Assembly: GCA_029378245.1 (NCBI GenBank)
Contig: JARKIF010000015.1
Span: 1,443,653 to 1,507,652, forward strand
DNA length: 64,000 bases
Source of the DNA: Roridomyces roridus
Taxonomy: Eukaryota; Basidiomycota; Agaricomycetes; Agaricales; Mycenaceae
Direction of reading: 5' to 3'
Both the position numbers and the translations under genes were made by a program. Positions 1 through 63,818 of this stretch are shown here, in pieces (the first letter of the stretch is position 1; each line of letters opens with the position of its first letter). The notes beneath the pieces were generated by a model. The model saw nothing but the letters and a program-made list of their open reading frames with translations. It was not told the DNA's origin and made no database searches.

Positions 1-1401
1 GAAAGCAGATGAGAACCGCATTAGAGGAGATTTCTTGAACTTGTGTGGAACTGGAGCTGGGATGCTGGAGAATTGTCCACAACGAGCAAGGTTTTTATAC
101 GCGTTGAGGGCCGCTCGAGCCGCGAGTTGGGATAAATGAAGGTGGGATGTGTACCTTGCATCTTACCCTTGTACGGTGCGGTGAGCTCACTCTGGACCCC
201 TTGCAGACAGCTGTCTGCCACCGCGGGCGGCCACTGCGCGGACGGCCTTGGGCGGATTTGGTGGAATACGATTTTTACAACTTTGAACCGCAGCATGACT
301 TGACGCGCAGATATTCTTGGGCTCAAACGTGTGGCAAACATCACCGCGGGCGGGCGGCCATTTTGCACTGAGGTGGGTCGCATTTTCGAGGGTCGTCGAA
401 CAATGATCTGCTCGAGAACTCATCCAAGCTTTGTGTGTAACCTCACCGTTAAGTTCCCAGGGCCTCCAAGAAGCTGATCTTCAGGTTTACCTGGTCAATC
501 CCACCTGTTCGGCTCCGGACCCTACATGCAAAGTTCCAATTAACGCCCCTGGTCGGCACAAATGAATTCATTTACGATTCAATTTGGTCTTCTGCATGCG
601 ACGCACGCCATTTCTCATACACTGCAGCGTAGACATTTATTGTGAACCCATCTTGACTACAGCGGGATTGAAATCAAGACTGACATTCTATCTTGTGGTG
701 TTCAACTCTGACCCCTTCCCTCAAAACACCTGGGACGCCCTTATGTACACTAGCGAAGACTGCTGTGCGTTCCTCGTCGGCGGTCGGATTCCACCCATAA
801 TAATACGACTTGTCTGTTTACCCCAGGGCTTAGCGCGCGCAGGCGGGAATATCCTTGACGACGACGACACATTCTCCGCTCAAAAAGGAATTACAAGATA
901 CCGGTTTGGGCTTGCTATTTCACGCTTTGATATATTGCAGCAGTTTGAGCGTAGATAGGAAGCATATTTGGCTCGTCTGCGCACCGGCCTTGGAGCGGAG
1001 TTGGGACGGCATCCACCGTTGACCTCGTTCTTATGCAGACATGTGACCGCCCACTGAACCTCCGCATGGGCATCCATGTGCGGGAGTCCTCCACTCGTAT
1101 ACCAGGCTCCGTTAGTGAAAACTGAACAACGCGAACGGATACTCGATGGAATTCAAGTTCAAAGCAAAAAGTGACCCCAGACCGCGCTCACTCATGTGTG
1201 GGGAATCGAACCCTGGATGGTCGTCTGAGAAAGCAACTGTTTTCGATCATTCGCATCACCAACGGCGGGTTGAAATATGTGCGGCACAAAGGTAGTCCAA
1301 CATCCACTCATTCGGCTTGCATTCGGCTTAATTCCCGACTCATGCATCATTTCGCAAGATACTCAAAAATACATGCGTTTTCGAGGCATAACTATTTCTG
1401 A
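1..1401. other. intergenic, no gene recognised
   Basis: No reading frame here has recognisable motifs, coherent splice structure or a paralogue in the window. The part from about 1205 to 1345 resembles 2620-2730 (shared CATTCGCATCAC and CATCCACTCATTCGGCTT stretches), so it is the 3' flank of precursor gene A, duplicated together with that gene. Confidence 0.5.
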
Positions 1402-1667
1402 TCAACGGGGAGGGTCGCGCTCCGATCCTTGAACACAATTTTCAGTACTCTTCTCGAAGCCGCAGTCCTAGTACTCACCGATTGACGTGTCGGCGTCGAT
1501 ATCAATGGGTGCAGTGGCATCGGCGTTGATTTCCCTGGAGCAGAAGGTTCATATAAAACAGGGAGTTGACGGACGGAGTCGGTGTGCACTTACCGCATGA
1601 CGACGGCGTTGGTGAGCAGTGCCATGTAGACAACGGTCAGGAGGAGGGAAGGCAGAGTGAAGCGCAT
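1402..1667 (-). CDS. secreted peptide precursor A, one repeat unit
   Basis: By splice inspection there are three exons (1594-1667, 1479-1534, 1402-1427) with GT-AG introns of 59 and 51 nt, giving a 51-residue product. It opens with a signal-peptide-like stretch (MRFTLPSLLLTVVYMALLTN), has a lone Arg at residue 25, and continues as a short acidic peptide ending in DADTSIGSERDPPR just before the stop. The second intron is phase 1 and splits the Gly codon of the IG-SE motif, exactly as in precursors B, C and D, which supports the structure. The secreted acidic part is the likely functional product, and the terminal Pro-Arg resembles a Kex2-type processing signal. There are no aromatic residues in the mature part. 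It lies head-to-tail with precursor B in a segmental duplication. Function is unknown; transcript data are lacking. Confidence 0.7.
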
Positions 1668-2830
1668 TTGGGTTCCGGGGAATGGTTTGGAGGGTATGGC
1701 TAGTCCGTTTCTAAGGAGCGAGGGAGATAGCTTCCGAGGTTGAACGTTGAACGTTGATTTCTCGAATATATTGAAAAGATTCGAAAAATCACACATTAGA
1801 CGTGCATGCTCTCACTTAACCCCGGAAAGGTATAGACATCAACACATTTCAATCCATAACGGTGCAAGCACCGGTCCCCTACTCTGGGACGGATCATGAC
1901 GCCGGCAGGAAATATCAGCCGGCGGCGGCTTGGCACGGGCCCCAGTGGGTGATTGCATTTTACATCAGGGATGGAGAAGAATGTGGGTCAGTGGTTGACA
2001 TATGTGGGAAAAGGTGGACTGAATTTTGCAGGCCATCAGCCATTCAGCCCCACAGAACTCTCCTCTTGACAGAGTAGGGGATAGGCTCAACAATCTCAGA
2101 AGGATCAGGAATCTCAGAAGGATCAGGAATTTCGGAGAAGAGCTGCACGGCGGTTCGTAAGTTCTGCATCCTTGTAGCCGCGGATGTGAATACAGATCGA
2201 GAAGAGAAATCGCCTAATCGTCGAACAGGAGACTCTGTGGTCATCATCCAGTTTCTCTGCGTGTGCTCATAGTGCTCGACGATCGCTGTCGATGAGCCGA
2301 ATCGGCCTCAGTTCGGAAATCAAGGAGTTCTGATGCAGGAAGCGCAAGTTCCCGCAATTGTTCGCCGTGGACAGATGTGCATGCGGTTTCACCTCCTGGC
2401 TTCTGGCCATGTGCAGGTTTGATTGTGCACAACTCACAGATCTGGAGGGTGTCGCACCCATTTGTGGGAACTTGAAGGATTCACGAAATGAACCGGTTTG
2501 GAATCTGGATTCAAGCTTCTGAGAATTCTCTGCCTGTTATCTTGCAAAAACCGCAGTCCGTTATCTGTTCTTTGTTCACTTGACCGAGGAGCTCAGATTT
2601 TGACGTCACGCGATACCGACGGCATCAGCATCATTCGCATCACAAACGGCCACCGGCATGTTGAACTATGTGGATGTGTTCAAACTGCCCGGACTGGAAC
2701 GCGGTTAGTCAAACATCCACTCATTCGGCTTTGACAATTGGAACCCATCCCACTCAGTATTTCTAGAACCTACTGATCATTTCGCAAATAAATATGACAT
2801 GCATTCTCGAATGTAATCATATCCGTTTGA
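1668..2830. other. intergenic between precursors A and B
   Basis: This holds the 5' flank of precursor A (transcribed leftwards) and the 3' flank of precursor B. Reading frames present are short and have no recognisable motifs. Homology to 3812-4600 marks it as part of the segmental duplication. Confidence 0.5.
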
Positions 2831-3811
2831 TTAACGGGGAAGGGGACCCTCGGATCCTTGAACGCAAGATTTCAGTGCTTTTCTCGAATTTGCAGTGCTA
2901 ATTACCGATGACCGCATCGGCGTCGATGTTGTCACGGGGAAGTGGGCCCTCAGATCCTTCAAAACCAGAGCTCATTACTTTTCTCGACGTAGAAGTCCTA
3001 GTACTTACCGATTACCGCATCAGCATCGATGTTGTCGCGGGGAAGGGGACCTTCCGAGCCTTGAAGACAACATTCCAGCGCTTTTCTCGAAGCTGCGGTC
3101 TCAGTGCTTACCGATGACCGCATCAGCGTCGATGTTGTCGCGGGGAAGCGGGCCCTCAGATCCTTTAAGACCAGAGCTCATTAATTTTCTCGACGTAGAA
3201 GTTCTAGCACTTACCAATTACCGCATCAGCGTCGATGTTATCACGAGGAAGCGGGCCCTCAGATCCTTTAAGACCAGAGTTCACTGCTTTTCTCGAAGTT
3301 GCAGGCTCAGTACTAACCGATCACCGCGTCGGCGTCGATGTTGTCGCGGGGAAGGGGACCCTCGGATCCTTGAAGACCAGAGTTCAGTACTCAGTGATTT
3401 CTCGAGGTTACGGTCCTAGTACTCACCTATGTCCGCATCGGCGTCGATGTTGTGACGGGGAAGTGGGCCCTCGGATCCTTGCAATTGAAGACAACATTTC
3501 AGTGCTTTTCTCGACGTTACATTCTTAATGCTTACCGATTACCGCGTCGGCGTCGATGTTGTCACGGGGAAGGGGACCCTCCGATCCTTGAAGGCACGGA
3601 TTAGGTTCCACTTGAGCGTCTTGGCAGTCCTGCGTACCGATAACATCGACATCAGCATTGACGTCGTCCCTTCAAGTTAAGCAGAAGGTTATTAGCACGG
3701 TTAACGCGGGGGATGTGAGCTTATGTACCGCTTGACGAGTCCCGGGAGGGCGTTGGTCAGCATTGCCGTGTAGACAACAGCCAAAAGGAGGGAGGGAAGA
3801 TTGAAGCGCAT
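2831..3811 (-). CDS. secreted multi-repeat peptide precursor B, one repeat per exon
   Basis: Ten exons by inspection: 3729-3811, 3638-3669, 3536-3586, 3427-3477, 3318-3368, 3215-3265, 3112-3162, 3009-3059, 2906-2956, 2831-2856. The product is 165 residues. A signal peptide (MRFNLPSLLLAVVYTAMLTN) is followed by a Lys-Arg site at residues 27-28, then one unit DDVNADVDVIGSEGPLPR and seven 17-residue units. Six of the seven read DNIDADAVIGSEGPLPR; one reads HNIDADADIGSEGPLPR. Every internal repeat exon is exactly 51 nt with phase-1 introns (49-59 nt) splitting the Gly codon of IG-SE, so exons can be gained or lost without frame change. Lys-Arg after the signal is a canonical Kex2 site. The LPR at each unit end resembles the Leu-Pro-Arg junction Kex2 cuts in yeast K1 preprotoxin. 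The layout suggests a secreted proprotein cut into up to eight peptides; mature form and role are unknown. Confidence 0.8.
2857..3586 (-). repeat. tandem exon-intron repeat array
   Basis: Seven consecutive units of 100-110 bp make up the array, each a 51-bp coding exon plus a 49-58 bp intron. The introns are also similar to each other (donor GTAAGCA-type, internal TTCTCGA, acceptor CTTCAAG or CTTTAAAG). This indicates that whole exon-intron units were duplicated rather than exons alone. Four consecutive introns are exactly 52 nt, which suggests recent unequal crossing-over in the 2957-3317 part. Confidence 0.85.
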
Positions 3812-4909
3812 TTGGGTCGGTTCCGAGGAATGGTTGTGAGATACCCTGGACGTCCGTATTTAACAAGTGAGGCCGATCTCATTTTTAGTGCAATTGTGTT
3901 GGGTGCGCGCTTCCGGGGTTGAACACCAGACATTAGTACTTCCAGTTTAGTAGCCGCGCCGCCGGTCAGGCCCTGGCAGTCCTCGAACGTGATGAAAAGA
4001 TTCGGAAAATCGCACAGTGGACGTGAATTCTCACTCAATCAACGGGAGGGCATCTGAGGGCATCATGATTCAATCGAGAATACGAAGACGTGATTGAATC
4101 CGCCCTAGAACAGAGCAACCTTAGAAGAAAAGGCCCAGGAATCCCGACAAGAGCTGCCGGTTTGTAAGTTTAACTCTGCATCCGTAGTGGGTGTGAGTGA
4201 GAAATTGCAATCACCTTAGATCTGGAATTTCCGGACGAGGGGGAGACACACTGGCAACGTCCATTAGTAAGCTCTGGTTGGATTTGCTCTGAACACACCT
4301 GTCGTCGCTTTGACCTCGGCCACCACTGGTGGCGCACTTAAATGGACCCTGATGCAGGTCCCAGGAAGCCGAGGTTGCCGAGGTTGTCCGCAATTGCTCG
4401 CAGTGAAGAGAAGTGCCTTTCAGCTTCTCTACCATGTGCAGGTCTGATTATCGAGAACTCAGAAGGTTCGGCATCCGGTTCACGAGATGAACTGGTTTGA
4501 AGTCTGCATTCAAGCCAGCTGGGAATTCTCTGTCCGTTTAAAGCCCACTCAAAGCCCAGACCTTGAGTAGAGATCCCCGTCGTCTTGCCACAGACACCGG
4601 ACAAAAATATTTATTCTCGAAGATGCTGCCGAGTCCGGCCGTGAAGCCAACGGGACGGACGCCATCTTGAACGTTGAAGTTATAACCATTGACAGATGTT
4701 TCTATTTTGTCTTGTTCCCTCATTATGAGTGTATCTCGTGAGCTGACATGACCTGGACCTTCGCGAAAACACCTTCTTTGTATCCAAGATAGGGAAAACG
4801 CGTGTTTTCATGAGTTTGTTGATGCGAAGACGTGTTGTTTACTCAAGTTTACGTGTTTGATGAGTGTCACGCAGGTCACAGGAGTCGTCTCCTTCTTTGT
4901 CTCTCCGCC
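3812..4909. other. intergenic between precursor B and BTB gene
   Basis: This is the 5' flank of precursor B (minus) and the 5' flank of the BTB gene (plus). A TTAAATACGG stretch at about 3856 on the minus strand could serve as a promoter element for precursor B. The part up to about 4600 is homologous to 1668-2560. No convincing coding sequence is present. Confidence 0.5.
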
Positions 4910-5973
4910 ATGAACGTCGAGCTCGACGACTTTGTGCCCGCCTACAAGCGGCGGCGCGTCTCAGACATGTCCCTCTCCTGCGATGACCTCTGTCCAGCCT
5001 CCGCCTGCCCCTCCACGCCGCTCAAGCAGCTGTGGTTTTCGGACGGCGACATCGTCCTCGACATCCAGCGCCGCCTCCTCAAGGTCCACCGAAAGCGGCT
5101 CATGTGCTCCATCATCTTCAGCGATATGCTCTGCATGCCACAGCCTACCGAGACGGACTCGTTTGACGGGTGCCCGAGCGTCACACTCATGGGTGACGCG
5201 TTGGCCGATTGGGAGGTGGCGTTGCGCTGGATCTATTACAAAGAGTGCGTCGTTGCTCGTATTGACTTGGATACCCATTGACGAGAAGCTACTAGCGAGT
5301 TTCTGAAGCAAGCAGTGACATTCGACATCCTATCTGGCGCTCTTCGTATTTCCACGAAATATGAAATCACGGGATTGCGTGAATGGGCGGTGGCAGAGGT
5401 GTTTTCTCGATGGCCTGTAGATGTTGCGAGTATGCGTCTCAACGCTCTTCCTCACGCCGCTGGTGCGTTGTGATTCCTCGTGTAAACCCTAAGCTTACCC
5501 CGTCCACAGAAGCAATCAACCTCGCACAAGAATGTGCCCTCCCCGAAATCCTCCCCTCCGCCTTCTACGCTCTCTCTGTCCAAAAGTTCCGCTCCTCTGC
5601 CGACGGCGGGCGCTCGCACATCGTTCTCTCCCCTGATGACCTACGCCGGCTCATAGCTGGGCGTGAGGCCCTACAAGACGTTCTCACGCGTATCCTCATC
5701 GACCCGCTCTCCGAGCCCGGCTGTCCGCTCTCTCCCAGCACCGTCGAATGCGGTGCGTGTGCACCACGCCGAGCCGAATACTGGCGCACGCGGCTCGCTC
5801 CGAATGCCAACCTCCCCTGGGGCACGTGGCTCGTCCGTGAGCTCGGGGAGATGTTGCGCGACGAGGCGTTTGTAGGGAGTCTTTGTCCTGCGTGTGTGCA
5901 TGGGCATTTGAGCACGATCAAGTGGAGGATGGGCAAGCTGCGAGGGGGAATGCCAGGTTTCTTTTTGCTGTGA
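4910..5973 (+). CDS. BTB/POZ-domain protein
   Basis: Three exons by inspection (4910-5244, 5296-5462, 5510-5973) give 321 residues. The N-terminal part has the BTB core: LWFSDGDIVLDIQ, then a VHRKRL...FSDML helix and the LRWIYYKD strand-helix region. After it comes a helical stretch with LREWAVAEVFSRWP, then a C-terminal region with Cys pairs (ECGACAPRRAEYW; CPACVHGHLSTIKWR), as in the lineage-expanded BTB family of mushroom-forming fungi. BTB domains mediate dimerisation and, in some proteins, Cullin-3 binding; which applies here is unknown. Met4910 was chosen because it directly precedes the conserved polar leader; an upstream in-frame Met at 4832 lies in sequence without similarity. Introns are 51 and 47 nt and frame continuity is perfect across both. 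Confidence 0.8.
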
Positions 5974-7649: not shown

Positions 7650-9691
7650 TCACAACTGCTGGACCAACTCTCCAGCCTCCCTCGATCGTAGAGTCAAGAT
7701 ACAATCCAACGCCTTTGGATGACTACCGTTCAAGTATCAATATCCATCGCACACGTGTTGAATGAGGGAAGGCTGCAAGCGCACCTAATAATACCCGACG
7801 TGTACTCCATCCGCTCCGCGGTCTTCTCGACTGGAGCGATACGGAACACAGCGAGTGTGCTGACGATGACTATGAACAGGACGTCGTCGGCGAGGAATTG
7901 ACCCGGGCATGCACGACGCCCGAAACCGAACGCGTAGCGTCGGGGATCTGGGTTCACTTCGTGTGCCTGTGCGCGTGAGTGACGGCCCCTGGGCGACGGA
8001 GGCGCATTGACGAATCGTTCGGGAGAAAACTCGAACGGTTCTGGGTAGCGCGCTGGATCATGCATTAGGGCCCATGCGTTTGCGAAGACAACGGATCCTT
8101 TGGGCAGGTGGTAACCTCGGTAAATGTCGTCTTGGCGTAGGAGATGCGGGAGTGCTAGTGGGACGACTGGGTTCCATCGCTGGAGCTAAACCACAAAGGT
8201 CAAGATTGGAACTTTTTTAAAACAAAGTTGGATTAACGAACCTCTTGGATGAGTGCTGCGATGTAAGGTAGGTCTTCCCGATCTTTAAAATTCGGGAGTC
8301 GTGTTGAGCCGACGACGCTGAGAAGCTCTGCGTAGGCGCGTTCTTGGACCGCGGGGTAGAGCGACATTGCGAGGAAGAAGGATTCGATTCCAGCGATCAT
8401 CTGCGGCGGTTGCAGTGATAAATAACTCGTCAACAACCTGGGAAGACGATGGAATTTACCGTGTCGATACCCGCTTGATGACCATGCGTGAGTCGACGAT
8501 CAAACTGACTGGGAATTCAAAGAGATTAACTGACCTCCGTATACCGCTATTGCAGCCCATTTGAAACAGAGCTCCTGCTGTGGTGTAGGGTTGGAATTCT
8601 CCTCCAAGATCTTGGTTATGAAGGACGGCTTTGCTGTGCCGTTCATCTGCACTAGGCATCAGTTCTGTTCCGCCACGAATCATGAATTTCTCACTGCTCG
8701 AATCTTGGTCTCCTCGTATGGGTCATCACGGAACATCTCCATTGTCCTACGAACGCGGAGCACGTCCTTCTTGAAGCGGATTCCAGTCCAAGAGGGGATG
8801 TGTCGCACTGCCTTGGAAATGAACAACAGTTCTGGGAATAAGATGGACCAGAAGACGCACGGATGGGGATCATCTCGACGAGGTACGTCCCAGAAACGAT
8901 TGTCGAGGAGAATTCTCCGTTGTAACGTTCGGCCAGTGCGACGATTGGATCGTTCTTCTCGGCGACGTTGTAACCATGGGACATGTCGAGAAGAATCGCG
9001 GAAGCAAGTCTGTTGAGAGGATTTCAGGCCGCCTTACTACCACAGCCCTGCCAGATCCTGTCCACGCACCTCTTGACGTGCGCCGATGCCGACGCTGGTT
9101 CTTTCAATGTCGAACGTAAGAAATCTGCCACCTTTTCTTCCTCCATCGCCCAATAATCCGGCAGTTTGCGGGGTGCGAGGACGCCACTGATCATCTTGCG
9201 ATACTCACGGTGCAGAGTGCCGTACGAACACGTCGTGACGCTCTCGCTCCATCCGACACTGTGCGTTATTCGGATTTAGTTTTGATATTTCTGTGGGAAC
9301 GACAGGACTCACAGCTCACCCATGATTGATCTCGGTCGGTCGGAATAAATGTTCATACGCCGCTCGAGGAGATCGAGGACAGCTGTCTCCGAGTTGAGGA
9401 TGATCATGTGTCGGCCGAGGGTGGAGATGTGCATGATATCGCCTGTGGGGGTGGGTCGGTTCATTCAGAATTTCTCGCACTCCGAGATTCATTGCACTCA
9501 CCATACTCCTTGGCCCATGCCTGGTACGTGATCCACCGACGGTCCCGCGGGAGATTGAACAGATTTCCGAGTATAGGAAGGCCAGGTGGGCCGGGTGGCA
9601 AGGGCGGAGACAGGCGTCTCAGCCTGAGCACCACAAGGACGCAAACGAAAATCACACCCGCGACAAACGCGAGGGCGGTGAGCTGGGGCAT
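7650..9691 (-). CDS. cytochrome P450 monooxygenase
   Basis: A multi-exon gene of roughly 500 residues that I could splice end to end. It starts with an ER-anchor helix (LTALAFVAGVIFVCVLVVLR) and a Pro-rich hinge LPPGPPGLPILGN. Mid-protein are SWTGIRFKKDVLRVR and the I-helix GAGIDT (exon at about 8459-8472, flanked by introns). An EDLPYIAALIQE K-helix region follows, with the ExxR motif continuing as RWNP after an intron, then PERF and the heme-binding loop FGFGRRACPG with the Cys thiolate. The C-terminal exon ends in SHPKALDCILTL...LVQQL at 7650. All hallmark motifs are present, so the gene looks functional. It resembles the large mushroom P450 families related to O-methylsterigmatocystin oxidoreductase-like enzymes; substrate cannot be inferred. 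It is not adjacent to the peptide precursors, and involvement with them is unsupported. Confidence 0.85.
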
Positions 9692-49326: not shown

Positions 49327-50916
49327 CATCAGCAAAATCACAGGTTTGTCTTGGGCGTCTTTTGTCTTGACGAGGCATCTTTTGTCTTGGCTGGGCATCT
49401 TCCAGCATCTTGGTCGTGGGCAAGATGTCTTGGATGGCTTGGCGATAATAATCTGTCTTTGAAGGATTCGTGTTTCAGGTACATCTGGTCTCCAAGCTGC
49501 CCAAGACGATCCGAGTTCTCTGAAGATGGAATTTCATCGAAAGACGCGAAGACAAATCTAAGTTTTTAAAAAGTAGTGTGCATATATTACATTCAATACG
49601 GACTGGACCAAATGCATATCCTTCATGAATCGGCTTCTCATAGCGAGTCTTGTATCTTGCTTGTATCCAGAAGCTTGAGGATGTGTGCTGCTGTCCAGGG
49701 CAGTGAAGTGTCGGCTTGGTGTTGGCTGCAGCTCGACGAGGTGGCCCGCGATGACAAGGGACCATCTTGAATCGGAGGGACACCGGGGAGCGAACCAGTC
49801 GAGGACCCGAGTCGGAGGAGGAAGAGAAGAAAATGTTTCAAGTGCTTCAAACTCCGCCCGGATCACAAATACCCGAGATGACTCATGTTACGGATGGCGT
49901 GATTCCGCCACGTCGCATCTCTTTCTTTTTCTTCCCACCACCACCCGTCCTTCCCTCGTCCAACTCGTCGCTCGTCTTGCCATAGTCTCCGCTCGTGCGC
50001 TTCCCGACCCCACCTGTCGCTCTGTCGCTGACGGCAACCGCTCGGAGGGCGCACACTCGACCTCACGCCTGCTACATCGCGTGCCCGTGCTAGCAAGACC
50101 CACGTTTGAAGAAAGAGCGAAGAAGAAAGAGTGACGGAGTGAAGACCGCCCACCCGGATATCCCTCACCTTCGTCCCCCACATAATGAAGCTCGCCTTCT
50201 TCGCTCCACACGCTCCTTGCCGCTCGCCTCACTCGACCCGGCCGCCCTGTCCCTTCTTCACCCTCCAGACTCTTGCCTACCCGCCGCACATCCCCCGTCC
50301 TCGTTTTCACACTGAACTCAACGTCGACAATCTCGTTTCGCAAGTCCCTGTACACCGTCACGAACGTATATGCACAAGATCTCGTGGCTAATCAAGATCG
50401 CTCCGCCTTCGAGATGTCAGCCGGCCTCCAAGATTTGCATTATGCCGAACCTCAAGCCGTTACCACGACGTTCATCTTTCACGCTGCCGTCGTGTCTGAT
50501 ACTGGTACAAGACCCGTCAGGGGTCGACAAACAAAGACCGACTGGGCCACTACCACTCCCTCCTCCCTCGTGATCCATCCTGTGTCGTTGCCCGCGTTCG
50601 TTACACCGGCGGGTTCCTCCATTCCCCTCCCCGTATATACTTGATTCATTGTAACGGTTACATCAATATATGCGTCTTTTCCTTCATCTTCTGTGGGAAC
50701 CTGAGTGTCTTGAGAGCTGTCTTCTGGGTGTCTTGACGAAGAGACTCGCTGCTTGCTCAAGATGCCCGCCGTCTTCCCAAGACGGATGTGTCTTCCCAAG
50801 CAATGTACTTAGCTTGGCCAAGACAGGCCGTCTTTAGCAAAGTCACGTCTTTTCCGTCTTCTATGTCTTGGCCAAGACGCCAAAGACGCCAAAGACGAAC
50901 CTGCGATTTTGCTGAT
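49327..50916. mobile_element. non-autonomous DNA transposon with CTTGG/AAGACG subterminal repeats
   Basis: Terminal inverted repeats CATCAGCAAAATC(A/G)CAGGTT at 49327 and, reversed, ending at 50916. Both ends carry many GTCTTGG- or CCAAGAC-type repeats (49349-49460; 50700-50896). It lies inside the prolyl-iminopeptidase pseudogene: the flanks CTCTCCGTCGT and TCGTACTTCCTCAAC are adjacent in the intact paralogue (52548-52590). No transposase frame is recognised in the 1.6 kb. Architecture is like the element at 16.3-17.9 kb but motifs differ, so it is a separate family. Confidence 0.8.
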
Positions 50917-51413
50917 GCATCTCTCTCGTACTTCCTCAACATATCACCGAATTCGGCGGGGAACTTGTGGTCGAGCAGCAAGTTGGCCCCAACTGACCAG
51001 AGCTCCATCGAAGCGGGTGCGTCGGCGAGGATGAGGCGACGCAGCCGGCTGATGATGTAGTCCGCCCCGAGCATACCGCCCCACGAATGTCCGGCCAAGT
51101 CAAACACGGTGTCTGCGAGGAGCTGTGCGATCACGTTGTCGAGCTCCTTCATGAACATCTCCACCGTCCAGAACTCGGCCGGCTTGTTCGGGAGGTGGGT
51201 GGAAAGTCCACAGCCGATCTGGTCGTAGAAGATGACGGGGCGGGTTTTAGACGCGAGTGCGGAGAAAGTGAGGAGGTATTGGTGCGGGATGCCAGGTCCA
51301 CCATGGAGGACTAAGAGTGGGCAGGGGGCTTTCAAATCCCCAAAGATCTTGTATGCGGTTTTGAACGTCTCGCCGTCGAGCACAAAGTCGATCGTGCCAG
51401 TGACTGGTTCCAT

Positions 51414-52123
51414 CTGGGGTGTGGGACGTTGGGCTCGCGCAACGCCGTATAAATGTGTGGGGAGAACTGAACTCGGGCGTCGGGCATCGGAGACGTGATG
51501 GATCTCTACATATTCAATTGCGAGCGCTGGTGAAAAGATCTTGGAGATTGGATCCAAACCAGTTTGGTGCAACGTAAATCCACCAGGCAGTTAGCAATAT
51601 ATACTGGCTTTGGCCAGATCTTTCGCGCTTTTTCTGGCTCCAGATTTTCGCATCCTTTGAGGGGTATCAAATTACCGAGCGTATGAGTAAGTCTTGGGGA
51701 GGTTCGCGTTAGGGGCTGTAGACACTCCAGAGAATCGACGAGGCTGGCATTCTTCTGGCTGACGTTGTGGTCGTCCTCGAGACAGAGAGACGCCGGGAGG
51801 AGACTGGAGGTCAAAACCCATGGTACCTGTAGTCACCTGTACCTAGATGTTGTGTGCGTGTGTGTTGCCTTGAGAGACGTCGGAAATACGCTGTAGTCTA
51901 TCGTCTTGGAGATTCGAAAGGTGGTGAGGAGAGCCAGAGAAGAGCTGTGATTGTCATTATTTCCGCAGGCTTCCAGTTGAAGAATGCCACCCATGTTGCA
52001 CTGGCACAAGAAGAGCAAAAAAATCGACCATGGAAGTCAGAAGCAAAGGGCGATCGAGCCATCACATCAAAGTGTTTGCCGTATTTGATGTCCGCGATAG
52101 GAGTACACAACGCAACTACTGCC
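51414..52123. other. intergenic
   Basis: 5' flank of the pseudogene and 3' flank of the intact paralogue. Nothing else recognised. Confidence 0.5.
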
Positions 52124-53083
52124 TCAAGCGTCCAAAAACTCGCCCACAACCTGCAAAAACCTCTCCCTCTCCTCAAAGAACGGCATATGACTACTCTCCG
52201 CAAATTGGACCCACTTGACCTTGGGAATACGCTCGAAAAACGGAGTAACCGAAACGTCCTGGGCGTCGTCCTCTTTGCCGTTGATAAGCAAAGTAGGCAC
52301 GGAGATCTTGTGCAGGTCGTTAATGACGGTCCACGTCCCCAGGGTACCTGTGATGTTGAACTCGGAGGGGCCGATCCTGGGTATGGGTCAGCTGGTCTCA
52401 AACAAATGGAAGCACGGGACGCACATGACAGCATAGACAGTGGGATCCTGCCCAAGCGCGTCGAACGCGCTCATGAGATCAGCAGGCCACGGCTTGACGG
52501 TACACAAATGCTTCTCATTGAACGCCTGAATCCCATTCTGATACTCCTCGCTCTCCGTCGTGCCCTCGCTCTCGTGCTTCTTCAACATATCGCGGAACTC
52601 GGTGGGGAATTTGTTGAGCAGGGAGTTGGTACCGACAGACCAGAGCTCCATGGACGCGGGCGCGTCTGCGAGGATGAGTCGGCGCAGCCCAGGTGGGTTG
52701 CGGCTGATGACGTAGTTGGACCCCATCATCCCGCCCCACGAGTGTCCGGCCAAGTCAAACACGGTATCGGGACCGCCGAGGAGCTGCGCGATCACGTTGT
52801 CCAGCTCCGTCATGAACATCTCGACCGTCCAGAACTCGGCCGGTTTGTCTGGCAGGTGCGTCGAGAGTCCACCGCCGACCTGGTCGTAGAAGATGACGGG
52901 GCGAGTTTTGGATGCGAGCGCGGAGAAGGTGAGCAGGTATTGGTGTGGAATTGCGGGTCCGCCATGGAGGACTAGGAGAGGGCAAGGGGACGATGGCGCT
53001 TTCAAATCCCCAAAGATTTTGTACGCGGTTTTGAAGGTCTCGCCGTTGAAGGCAAAGTCGATCGTGCCAGTGACTGGTTCCAT
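52124..53083 (-). CDS. prolyl-iminopeptidase-like alpha/beta hydrolase (S33)
   Basis: Two exons with an intron at about 52377-52421 give about 304 residues. Family features: LLVLHGGPAIPHQYL (HGGP oxyanion turn), VIFYDQVGGGLSTHLP, the nucleophile elbow FDLAGHSWGGMMGSNY (Ser in GHSWGG), LILADAPASMELWS, and the cap. In the last exon come the acid-residue region NGKEDDAQDV and the His motif QFAESSHMPFFEERE before FLQVVGEFLDA. All three catalytic positions are present. The enzymes release N-terminal proline (or related residues) from peptides; they are cytosolic or secreted, and no signal peptide is visible here. It is the intact partner of the disrupted copy. A link to the peptide precursors further right is only positional and is not supported by chemistry. 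Confidence 0.85.
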
Positions 53084-54058
53084 CTGGGGGGTGGCCGTAC
53101 GAGTCGCGAGCAAGGTGTAGAAATGTGAGCGTGGGTATCGAAGCCCGAAGAAGGTGATGAATTTGTGATGGATCGAAAAAAAATCAGGTGCGCTGCCAAA
53201 ATGGTCTGATTGATTCAGCCCGAACCAGTTCGGTTCACCGTAAATCCGCCGGTTGGTGAGCGATATATTTGCCCAGGCCAAGTCTTCCCTGCTCTTTCCA
53301 TCTCTACGTTTTCGCATGAAGACTGCCTCCCACGGGCATTAAATTAGCGATCCTCGTCACTTGGCCAGTACGGGTAAGTCTTGCCCGAGTTCCCCATTCT
53401 CCAGGCAACCTCCGCCGTTCACAACAATCAAATAAGCGCATTGAAATTCAACTCCTAGGAACTTTAGCTCCCTACATCAGAACTCAGTGACTGCCCTCAG
53501 GTTCTCGGTGATCGGGGGAAGGGTGAATAAAAGACCCGCTTGACGCGCATCCTGAATGCTAATGACGGTGGATGCAGATACTGAGATGACCCTAGCACTG
53601 TAAGCTCAACCTAGTGCCCTTATCGGTACTACCCTTCCACTTACTCGGCGTTCGATTTCAATGGATGTCAAGTTGTGGCGCATTGAAGTTTAACGCTGTA
53701 TCAAAGATCCAAAATTAGAATGCCCGGTGTGCTAATTGTTTCCCGTCCATGCATTTGTTGCACTCGGAACAAGCAATAGCGTCTCGATTCTTGATTATCG
53801 CACGCCCAGTGCTTCCGCCGCCCTCATCGCAACAGCGAAGCAGGGCTGCTTCCTTGATCCTGTTCGAAGCGTCGAACCTGGGCGAGGGAGTTGGAAGATG
53901 CGGGTCGCCATATGGTTGCTACTATCCTCGAAGATCTCTGTGCGACAAATGGGCGCTGTATACATAGCTACGTACAAATGCAACCATAGCCCTGAATTCC
54001 AGCCCTTGAATTCCACTTTGACTCATTTGGACTGTAGAGCAACAAGACACGAATGTAT
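53084..54058. other. intergenic, no gene recognised
   Basis: 5' flank of the hydrolase and 3' flank of the UstYa-like gene. Short frames only. Confidence 0.5.
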
Positions 54059-54687
54059 TCAGATATCGCCCCTGGTCTCATTCCAATCCAAAAATACCCC
54101 ATAATTCCTCTCCGCCTCCTCATACACCTTCGTCCAATCCATACACACCGATTCGTAATCCCTTATAGCCGTCCCAACTGTATTCTTGACCGACTCGAGG
54201 CGGATATTCGGGCGGCACAAAATCGACTGTCGCAGATAGTTGAGACAATGGTGGGTCACCGGACTCGGGGTGTTCCCAGGCTCCAAAGCGAGGTACTCTT
54301 GGCGAAGAATGTCGAGGCATTTCATCTGATGGAAGAGAGTCACTGTGTACGGCTGCACGCTTCCCGTGTCCTTGTCGAGGACGTGCACCATGTATCCTCC
54401 AGGCGGGAGTAATTTGCCGTATTCCTCCGCGCCTTCTGCTGTGTCAAACTGATAGTGCGCGGAAGCGGTGATTCGCATGACGACGGGGTCCGCGGTGTCG
54501 ATGCGTGTGTTGAAGGAGAGACCAGCTTGAAAGGCTGACCGTCAGCTATGGTACGTGAGTGAGGATCAAGCTCACTGGAGTAGCGTTGAGCCTCTTGGCC
54601 CCATGAGGGAACCAATAGGAAGCCCAAGGTTCCGATGAGAAAGAGGACGGACAAAACCAGCGAGGTTGTGCGGGTGGGTGGGTTCAT
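54059..54687 (-). CDS. DUF3328/UstYa-like protein, degenerate HxxHC motifs
   Basis: Two exons (54576-54687, 54059-54525) give 192 residues. The N-terminal signal anchor SLVLSVLFLIGTLGFLLVP is typical of the family. The body contains VTLFHQMKCLDILRQEYLAL and VTHHCLNYLRQSILC. In UstYa oxidases these two sites are HxxHC motifs thought to bind a metal. Here the first is HxxKC (HQMKC) and the second lacks the leading His (VTHHC). The C-terminus VCMDWTKVYEEAERNY is the usual D-W-x-K-(V/L)-x-E/D segment. UstYa-family enzymes cyclise or oxidise ribosomal peptides such as ustiloxin. Given the altered motifs, activity is uncertain. It lies 3.2 kb from precursor C and, with 63154-63818, is one of two family members in the right-hand cluster. 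Confidence 0.8.
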
Positions 54688-57862: not shown

Positions 57863-58401
57863 ATGCGTTTCCACCTGTCCGCTGTCTTCTTCACCTTCGC
57901 CTCCATGGTTGATGCTAGCCCAAAGCATCGCTGTCCCCGTGGACATCAACGAGGACGTTACTATTGGTAGGAGACTATCCCTTGTCTGGAAAATCCTCTC
58001 ATACTCATTTACCCTTCCAGGCTCTGAGCGCGAGCCTCCTCGCCGACGCATTGCAGTCCCCGTTGACATCAACGAGGACGTTACCATTGGTAGGAAACTA
58101 TCCTTTATCCGGAACTCTCTCGTACTCATTTAATTTGCCAGGCTCTGAGCGCGAGCCTCCTCGTCGACGCATCGCTGTGGACATCAACGAGGACGTCACT
58201 ATTGGTACGAGACTATCCTTTGTCCGGAAAACTCTTTCATACTCATTCATATTTCCAGGCTCTGAGCGCGAGCCTCCTCGTCGACGCATTGCCGTGGACA
58301 TCAATGAGGACGTTACTATTGGTACGCGACTATCCTTTGTTCGGAAAATTCTCTCATACTTATTCAAATTTCCAGGCTCTGAGCGCGAGCCTCCTCGTTG
58401 A
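57863..58401 (+). CDS. secreted multi-repeat peptide precursor C (frame break after signal)
   Basis: Five exons by inspection: 57863-57966, 58021-58089, 58142-58204, 58259-58321, 58376-58401 (introns 52-54 nt, phase 1 at IG-SE in the repeat frame). Repeat exons encode SEREPPRRR followed by IAVPVDINEDVTIG (two units in all with PV) or IAVDINEDVTIG (two units); the last exon is SEREPPR and stop. The signal-like start MRFHLSAVFFTFASMVDAS is in a different frame from the first repeat: the Met frame reaches a stop soon after, and the shift lies at about 57936-57946. So the gene is either freshly inactivated or mis-sequenced; I do not reconstruct it. Unlike B, units are separated by Arg-Arg-Arg, a strong Kex2-type site. 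Relationship to A, B and D is shown by D-I-N-x-D, IGSER and identical intron position. Confidence 0.7.
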
Positions 58402-63153: not shown

Positions 63154-63818
63154 CTACGCCCACTGTTTCTTCCACTCCAACCAATCATCGTACGCTCCGT
63201 CCATCACATCATGCACCTTCTTCCAATCGTCGCATACCAACGAATCACGCGGGCCCTGGGCACTCCACTCGGTCCGCATGAAATCACCCTCCTCCAACCC
63301 ATCCGCAGCCTGACAAAGCAGCGTCTGTCTCAAATAATTCAGACAGTGGGCGAAATGGTGGAGGTTCGAGGTGCGCGCCCGCGTGTCGTTCGTGGCTGTT
63401 CCTAAAAAGGCGATCTGCGCGCGTCGTACACAATGGAGCTGGTGGTAGAACGTTGGGAGGAAAACGCGGTACTCTGGACCGAGGCGCGTGCGTCCGAAGC
63501 CTTTGGGATTTTCGCCCAGGGTGGCCCATTCCGAGTCGTTCGCAAGGGTGTCGGAGGGGTCGAGCGAGAAGCGGACGGGCTCGTAGATGCTCATGGCGAC
63601 GGGTTCGAATGGGCCGAGGGGTAGTCGAGTGGGTAGTCGTCGCCGATGTAAGTGTAGGTGCGGGCTAGCCAGGTTAGTCTCTGATTGTTTTGTTCTCGTT
63701 CAGACTTACGAGCGCTCTGGGGGCGAAGGACACGAACTCCGACGTTCCACGACAAGACGCAGACATTCAGCGCGACAAGAAACTGGAACAGGCGTTGCAA
63801 GAAGTTGGATTGGGACAT
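63154..63818 (-). CDS. DUF3328/UstYa-like oxidase with frame break
   Basis: Two exons (63710-63818, 63154-63664). N-terminal anchor QFLVALNVCVLSWNVGVRVL, then RTYTYIGDDYPLDYP, the typical basidiomycete UstYa front. The body in the next frame reads GPFEPVAMSIYEPVRFSL, SEWATLGENPKGFGR, both complete metal-binding motifs FYHQLHC and HHFAHCLNYLRQTLLC (HxxHC twice), and VCDDWKKVHDVMDG. The join between YPLDYP and the body is broken by one base inside a run of four G at 63618-63621 (C on the coding strand), either a real frameshift or a homopolymer error. Family members catalyse oxidative cyclisation of ribosomal peptides in ustiloxin-type pathways. With both motifs intact it is the better candidate enzyme for the nearby precursors, if functional. 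Confidence 0.75.

Follow-up and report, generated by a model that had tools for sequence, protein, structure and literature searches.

A gene on the minus strand of the window (the whole stretch of 64,000 nucleotides of Roridomyces roridus that was analysed) probably encodes a secreted precursor of multiple peptide copies, with linear peptides released by a kexin-type protease and a history of repetition of one DNA block. This reading is drawn from the DNA sequence: a ten-exon structure, a peptide conserved despite change at silent sites, a family of genes with the same plan, and close copies of relatives that differ in unit number without loss of frame. In the spliced model the gene runs from 3811 to 2831 and has ten exons and nine introns, with a coding sequence of 498 nucleotides and a protein of 165 amino acids:

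3729..3811, minus strand: exon 1, 83 nt; signal peptide MRFNLPSLLLAVVYTAMLTNA (by inspection), then LPGLVKR; like exon 1 of the one-core genes
3638..3669, minus strand: exon 2, 32 nt; head of core 1, DDVNADVDVI(G)
3587..3637, minus strand: intron 2, 51 nt; GT-AG, without in-frame stop (frame read by eye)
3536..3586, minus strand: first of seven 51-nt exons; (G)SEGPLPR + DNIDADAVI(G)
3427..3477, minus strand: second 51-nt exon; (G)SEGPLPR + HNIDADADI(G), the sole 51-nt exon with altered residues
3318..3368, minus strand: third 51-nt exon
3215..3265, minus strand: fourth 51-nt exon
3112..3162, minus strand: fifth 51-nt exon
3009..3059, minus strand: sixth 51-nt exon
2906..2956, minus strand: seventh 51-nt exon
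2831..2856, minus strand: last exon, 26 nt, with TAA; (G)SEGPLPR, then stop; last exons of 26 nt are also found in F4, F5, F6 and F7 (see below)
2834..3593: tandem array found by TRF, period 103 (7.3 copies) and 206 (3.6 copies)

All nine introns are GT-AG with lengths between 49 and 59 nucleotides, all ten exons are open and no exon has an indel. The seven internal exons have exactly 51 nucleotides each and are flanked by phase-1 introns that split one Gly codon, just as the original prediction had described them. Introns 3 to 9 are 58, 58, 52, 52, 52, 52 and 49 nucleotides long: indels have thus occurred in the introns, while the exons have kept their length. The transcript is likely spliced as modelled; intron 2 could be retained, as it contains no in-frame stop. 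The signal peptide is clear by inspection and common to the relatives, and Lys-Arg follows it directly before core 1, as had been claimed. There are eight cores: the first, DDVNADVDVIGSEGPLPR, is divergent and begins in the 32-nucleotide exon, and cores 2 to 8 have 17 residues each, six of them DNIDADAVIGSEGPLPR and one HNIDADADIGSEGPLPR (HNIDADADIG...).

The register of exon and peptide is not the same. Each 51-nucleotide exon, (G)SEGPLPR-DNIDADAVI(G), codes for the end of one core followed by the start of another, and the Arg-bounded peptide is therefore split over two exons, in the order D...IG, intron, SEGPLPR. Of the earlier claim that one exon codes for one 17-residue peptide unit, it is correct that every repeat has its own 51-nucleotide exon, but the exon is not the peptide unit, as the cores span two exons. 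The block repeated at the DNA level is one core with an intron inside, and units 2 to 8 measure 109, 109, 103, 103, 103, 103 and 100 bp. Units 5 and 7 are the most similar pair of the gene (0.90) and this, together with the 206-bp period, may point to copying in blocks of two units.

At least five further multi-core loci of the genome share the repeated-exon plan. One of them, F4, lies in the same window and was found through a TRF array at 57937-58398, with cores such as DINEDVTIGSEREPPR; a genome search seeded with F4, of which the best candidates were scored, identified the others:

57863..58401 of the window, plus strand: F4, multi-core gene; internal exons 58021-58089, 58142-58204 and 58259-58321, last exon 58376-58401; dibasic RR
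C57:1.226 Mb: F5, 11 internal exons
C57:1.412 Mb: F6, 6 internal exons
C157 and C72: F7, 10 internal exons (C157) and 9 (C72)
C460: F8, 6 internal exons, last exon not found

F4, with three internal exons, has copies in the window and on C349. In F4 to F8, the head of core 1 is encoded in exon 1 together with the signal peptide, and internal exons range family-wide from 51 to 69 nucleotides; that the exon lengths of the relatives are divisible by three is partly built in, since donors were required to be in frame, while acceptors were found regardless of frame. Divided by three, the lengths of 59 introns leave a remainder of 0 in 22 cases, of 1 in 16 and of 2 in 21 (these introns are not independent, as F5/F6 and the F7 copies share introns). 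Over the full length, the ten-exon gene product is 44% identical to F7 (187 columns). When its unit was compared with those of F4, F5, F7, F8 and the one-core gene described below, the score was reached by 1, 0, 0, 0 and 0 of 2000 shuffles, respectively; F6 was left out of this comparison, and the F5 and F8 units are identical in sequence. A further locus, F9 (C357:465929-466595), is left out of all counts. In F8 (L050, C460:130309-133911), the sequence behind the acceptor that follows the sixth internal exon is dissimilar, which gives the gene a truncated look. F5, F6, the one-core gene F2, the ten-exon gene and F4 all lie in the final 0.28 Mb of C57, the contig of the window (C57:1226617-1501975), and this contig ends with the window.

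The public protein FB45DRAFT_870712 has the repeated exons of F4 spliced identically, with a different first exon. At position 57909 the window copy of F4 has one extra base in comparison with the copy on C349 and the public protein carries the shifted start; since all differences between the two copies over 3.9 kb are single-base indels (three, with no substitution), an assembly error at 57909 is likely. No relatives outside R. roridus were identified among public predicted proteins of 0.55 to 1.75 times the query length (mostly the best 8000 candidates by shared words), the spliced product of the ten-exon gene had no match at E values up to 10 among the best 8000 candidates by shared words, and Rfam had no match in positions 1-5000 of the window.

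The original reading as a secreted multi-core precursor is supported. This precursor would enter the secretory pathway and be cut by a kexin-type protease after Lys-Arg, which occurs once, before core 1, and after each Pro-Arg, which is present at all seven junctions between cores; the kexin P domain has two matches in the genome. The predicted products are seven acidic peptides of 17 residues (six DNIDADAVIGSEGPLPR and one variant) and one of 18 residues, perhaps trimmed of Arg, and these linear peptides would have an extracellular role, most likely in signalling or defence. Pro-Arg is a site that Kex2 accepts in a killer toxin of yeast. Dibasic RR is found at 42 of 45 junctions of the five relatives when both F7 copies are counted (F4 3/3, F5 10/11, F6 4/6, F7 10/10 and 9/9, F8 6/6). 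Products of mushroom KEPs made in Pichia were possibly cut after a single Arg, according to the parts available of PMC9769878; the parts available of PMC8999023 hold nothing usable on Pro-Arg cutting by Kex2.

As far as can be judged from the portions available of three KEP papers (PMC6339444, PMC7329392, PMC9769878), the ten-exon gene shares with KEPs an apparent signal peptide (by inspection) and tandem, near-identical short cores (six of its eight cores are identical), and the five relatives also share the RR between cores, at the 42 junctions given above; the ten-exon gene differs by its Pro-Arg between cores and by the intron in every unit. In the main text available of these papers the words 'exon' and 'splic' are absent and 'intron' occurs once (PMC9769878). 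KEPs are defined by dibasic KR, RR or KK between repeats and none of the seven junctions of the ten-exon gene is dibasic, which is why we do not class it as a KEP; F4 and F7 have the dibasic sites and would qualify in this respect. The ten-exon gene would work like a KEP while lacking the dibasic junctions, and may represent a variant kind.

It is unlikely, in our view, that the repeats stay uncut in one secreted acidic repeat protein, its units being calcium-binding loops of the type D-x-N/D-x-D-x-x-I as in dockerins and EF hands. The composition of the units fits such loops in part: among 29 distinct units (the incomplete last unit of F8 is left out of this count) 26 have D at position 1, 25 have N or D at position 3 and 28 have D at position 5, and positions 6 and 7 are the most variable of the first seven. 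The pattern that defined the units prescribed I or V at position 8, G or S at 9 and P or L at 14 and also fixed positions 10, 11, 15 and 16; constancy at these positions is partly built in. EF-hand loops need Gly at position 6 and D or E at position 12; however, Gly is found at position 6 in only 7 of the 29 units, and D or E at position 12 in none. F7 has matches to Dockerin_1 (E 0.0083, 16.7 of 22.9 bits) and EF-hand_5 (E 5.8, 7 of 25.9 bits), both below the cut-off, but no family reaches its cut-off (the best is PG_binding_3 with 20.9 of 24.6 bits in F7), for the ten-exon gene neither Dockerin_1 nor EF-hand_5 is listed at all, and a 70-residue piece of F7 has no match among PDB sequences. 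Moreover, the RR between the cores of the relatives points to cutting.

Chemical modification of cut peptides is a separate question. Two open reading frames close to F4 match UstYa:

54059..54541, minus strand: stop-to-stop ORF with UstYa (PF11807) match, 3.3 kb from F4
63154..63699, minus strand: stop-to-stop ORF with UstYa (PF11807) match, 4.8 kb from F4

Their position beside F4 could mean that the family encodes modified RiPP precursors of the dikaritin type, with cores cross-linked by UstYa oxidases and the ten-exon gene in the same pathway. UstYa matches are sparse (at least 28 places in 90.8 Mb, near-identical copies counted), and Tyr is present in some units of F5, F6 and F8 (two each). 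We nevertheless regard a dikaritin-type product as quite improbable: the cores of the ten-exon gene, F4 and F7, and thus both multi-core genes of the window, contain no Tyr, Phe or Trp, the aromatic residue expected of a dikaritin core, and, among the at least 28 UstYa matches, none is on C157, C72 or C460 or within 84 kb of F5 or F6, and the nearest to the ten-exon gene is 50.3 kb away. UstYa (DUF3328) genes beside the precursor, as dikaritins have them, are thus found at F4 and not at the ten-exon gene. The gene has in common with UstA (ustiloxin) and other dikaritins the multiple cores and basic cut sites, and F4 also its place between two UstYa ORFs; the difference, in addition to the lack of aromatic residues and of a nearby UstYa match, is that the core is split by an intron. 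There is no sign that the peptide is modified (none of the at least 28 UstYa matches lies within 50 kb of the ten-exon gene), and we assume with moderate confidence that its product is linear.

F4 and the two UstYa ORFs are possibly a RiPP cluster without aromatic cores. Two alpha/beta-hydrolase ORFs are also found near F4 (50757-51590 and 52388-53338). A Pfam scan of 20 of 82 ORFs (4823 to 27474), together with 10 ORFs near F4, detected in the former P450 (the ORF at 7730-8185 of the window) and Myb domains and a weak F-box match, none of which ties to the ten-exon gene.

That the repeats of the ten-exon gene code for a maintained peptide is seen at the codon level. Among the 15 variable exon columns, 13 are third codon positions, which make up 17 of the 51 columns (hypergeometric P 4.3e-7). 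In the modelled frame, the 21 exon pairs have 123 silent and 12 changing codon differences (123/135 silent), and every pair with a non-zero dN includes the one variant exon; the other five frames have silent/changing counts of 6/133 and 6/126 and, for the antisense frames, 0/139, 11/124 and 90/42. Mean identity of the units is 0.983 at codon positions 1+2, 0.625 at third positions and 0.752 in the introns, indicating that the peptide was kept constant while silent sites changed. The corresponding counts of the relatives are raw and were done on exon ends only: 10/0 for F4 (from the C349 copy, the C57 copy left out), 152/145 for F5, 50/48 for F6, 89/117 and 83/78 for F7 and 32/71 for F8. Strict conservation is therefore limited to the ten-exon gene and F4.

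These data bear on two further readings. The array could be a minisatellite, decayed or non-coding, that looks coding because it descends from a former gene: the ten-exon gene is absent from the public proteins searched, and in the window copy of F4 the difference at 57909 leaves signal peptide and cores in different frames. This is very unlikely given the open exons, the intact splice sites, the absence of exon indels and the silent-site bias of the ten-exon gene itself, and the 57909 difference is one of the three indels already described as resembling an assembly error. Even less credible is an expressed plus-strand gene in the 185-codon stretch 2862-3419, which is open from stop to stop across 558 nucleotides: the antisense codon counts, against 123/12 in the modelled frame, rule it out, and the 103-nucleotide period shifts its frame at each repeat.

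Symmetric exons had been predicted to permit changes in core number without loss of frame and such changes are seen in relatives, but not in the ten-exon gene: its near-identical copies on C57 and C280 show no difference and hence no change of core number. One case is F5 and F6, which are 98.7% alike over 700 bp upstream and 99.4% over 500 bp downstream. F6 lacks exons 5-9 of F5 (counted after the signal-peptide exon), exactly five consecutive exons, and has 6 internal exons versus 11. Exons 1, 3, 4, 5 and 7 of F6 correspond to exons 1, 3, 4, 10 and 12 of F5 with zero differences; there are 2 differing bases between exon 2 of F6 and exon 2 of F5, and 1 between exon 6 of F6 and exon 11 of F5. 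At 56 of its 57 bases the junction intron of F6 is identical to the F5 intron that follows exon 4; at the remaining base it has the letter of the F5 intron that precedes exon 10. The next exon of F6, exon 5, has 0/57 differences from F5 exon 10 and 5/57 from F5 exon 5, the first at position 11. This places the junction either at the intron's end or within the first ten bases of the exon; the intron is marked as a hybrid by a single base, with which the following exon is consistent. F5 and F6 are 186 kb apart on one contig and may be misplaced alleles. The F7 copies on C157 and C72 differ by one exon (10 versus 9) and also in the content around that exon; their two best alignments are 91% alike, the 500 bp downstream are identical and 679 aligned upstream bases are 84% alike, and they, too, may be alleles.

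A possible origin of the ten-exon gene is still found next to it:

1402..1667, minus strand: F2, one-core relative with three exons (1667-1594, 1534-1479, 1427-1402; end of the last exon read by eye)

The model product of F2 is identical to the public R. roridus protein FB45DRAFT_1061961 (51/51 residues). A second one-core locus is present on C465 and C466, the two being 97.5% alike over 4.9 kb. In its genes (L003 and L004, about 1690) the second intron is GC-AG, and the public model P0002 reads through this intron in the C466 gene. The one-core relatives have the intron position and phase of the ten-exon gene and a last exon of 26 nucleotides (partly by eye). The C465/C466 locus matches both flanks of the window locus and lacks the 2.3 kb (2538-4846) that carry the ten-exon gene; segments of the one-core genes and their surroundings match those of the multi-core genes at 71-96%. 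This fits a tandem duplication of the three-exon, one-core gene, followed in one duplicate by repetition of a block of about 103 bp that would begin at the start of the core, include the intron and end with the last Arg codon; alternatively, the C465/C466 locus may have lost its multi-core gene. Because of the intron in each block, the period is not a multiple of three in the DNA (103) but is one after splicing (51), and the frame would survive recombination between any matching pair of introns or exons. A more distant one-core relative (MRFNLPALFFTIAYMALFTTA...) is found at about 2938-3209 of L028 (minus strand) and also at C349:1599-1667; its gene on C466 was read by eye, again with a last exon of 26 nucleotides.

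A bolder version of this history, which we put forward only tentatively, is that of a lineage-restricted family in which the intron inside each core is a working part: it would uncouple DNA period and reading frame and so let recombination between introns, possibly with exon skipping, set the number and mix of peptides; near-identical copies of members differ, and one member would have been recruited into a UstYa pathway. The family includes genes with one core, genes with long arrays and copies that differ from one another in whole exons, so the step from one to many peptides is traceable within one genome. The original prediction knew of no described case of such a gene. For fungi this held in our searches of open-licence papers, which returned no apt case of a precursor with tandem exons; it does not hold overall, as skin peptide genes of frogs have a similar device. 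The caerulein and magainin genes of Xenopus are so described in the portion available of PMC3899252, where the repeated piece of magainin and CPF is said to be exons 2 and 3. Tandem exons are thus known in animals, and the ten-exon gene would be a fungal parallel to the frog genes; beyond the difference in kingdom, its repeat is one core with an intron inside, a comparison made by description and from that portion of the source. Published searches for fungal precursors use dibasic sites in predicted proteins, and a gene of ten short exons with Pro-Arg spacers is easily missed.

At about 1-20, the window also touches a His-, Gly- and Asp-rich repeat protein that looks secreted and precursor-like, with Arg-Arg between the repeats, and that is found in L009 at about 8750-9675 (minus strand). 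A Pfam scan of the three minus-strand frames of L009 detected Aminotran_5 only. The counterpart of this repeat protein on C465/C466 gives repeated alignments too.
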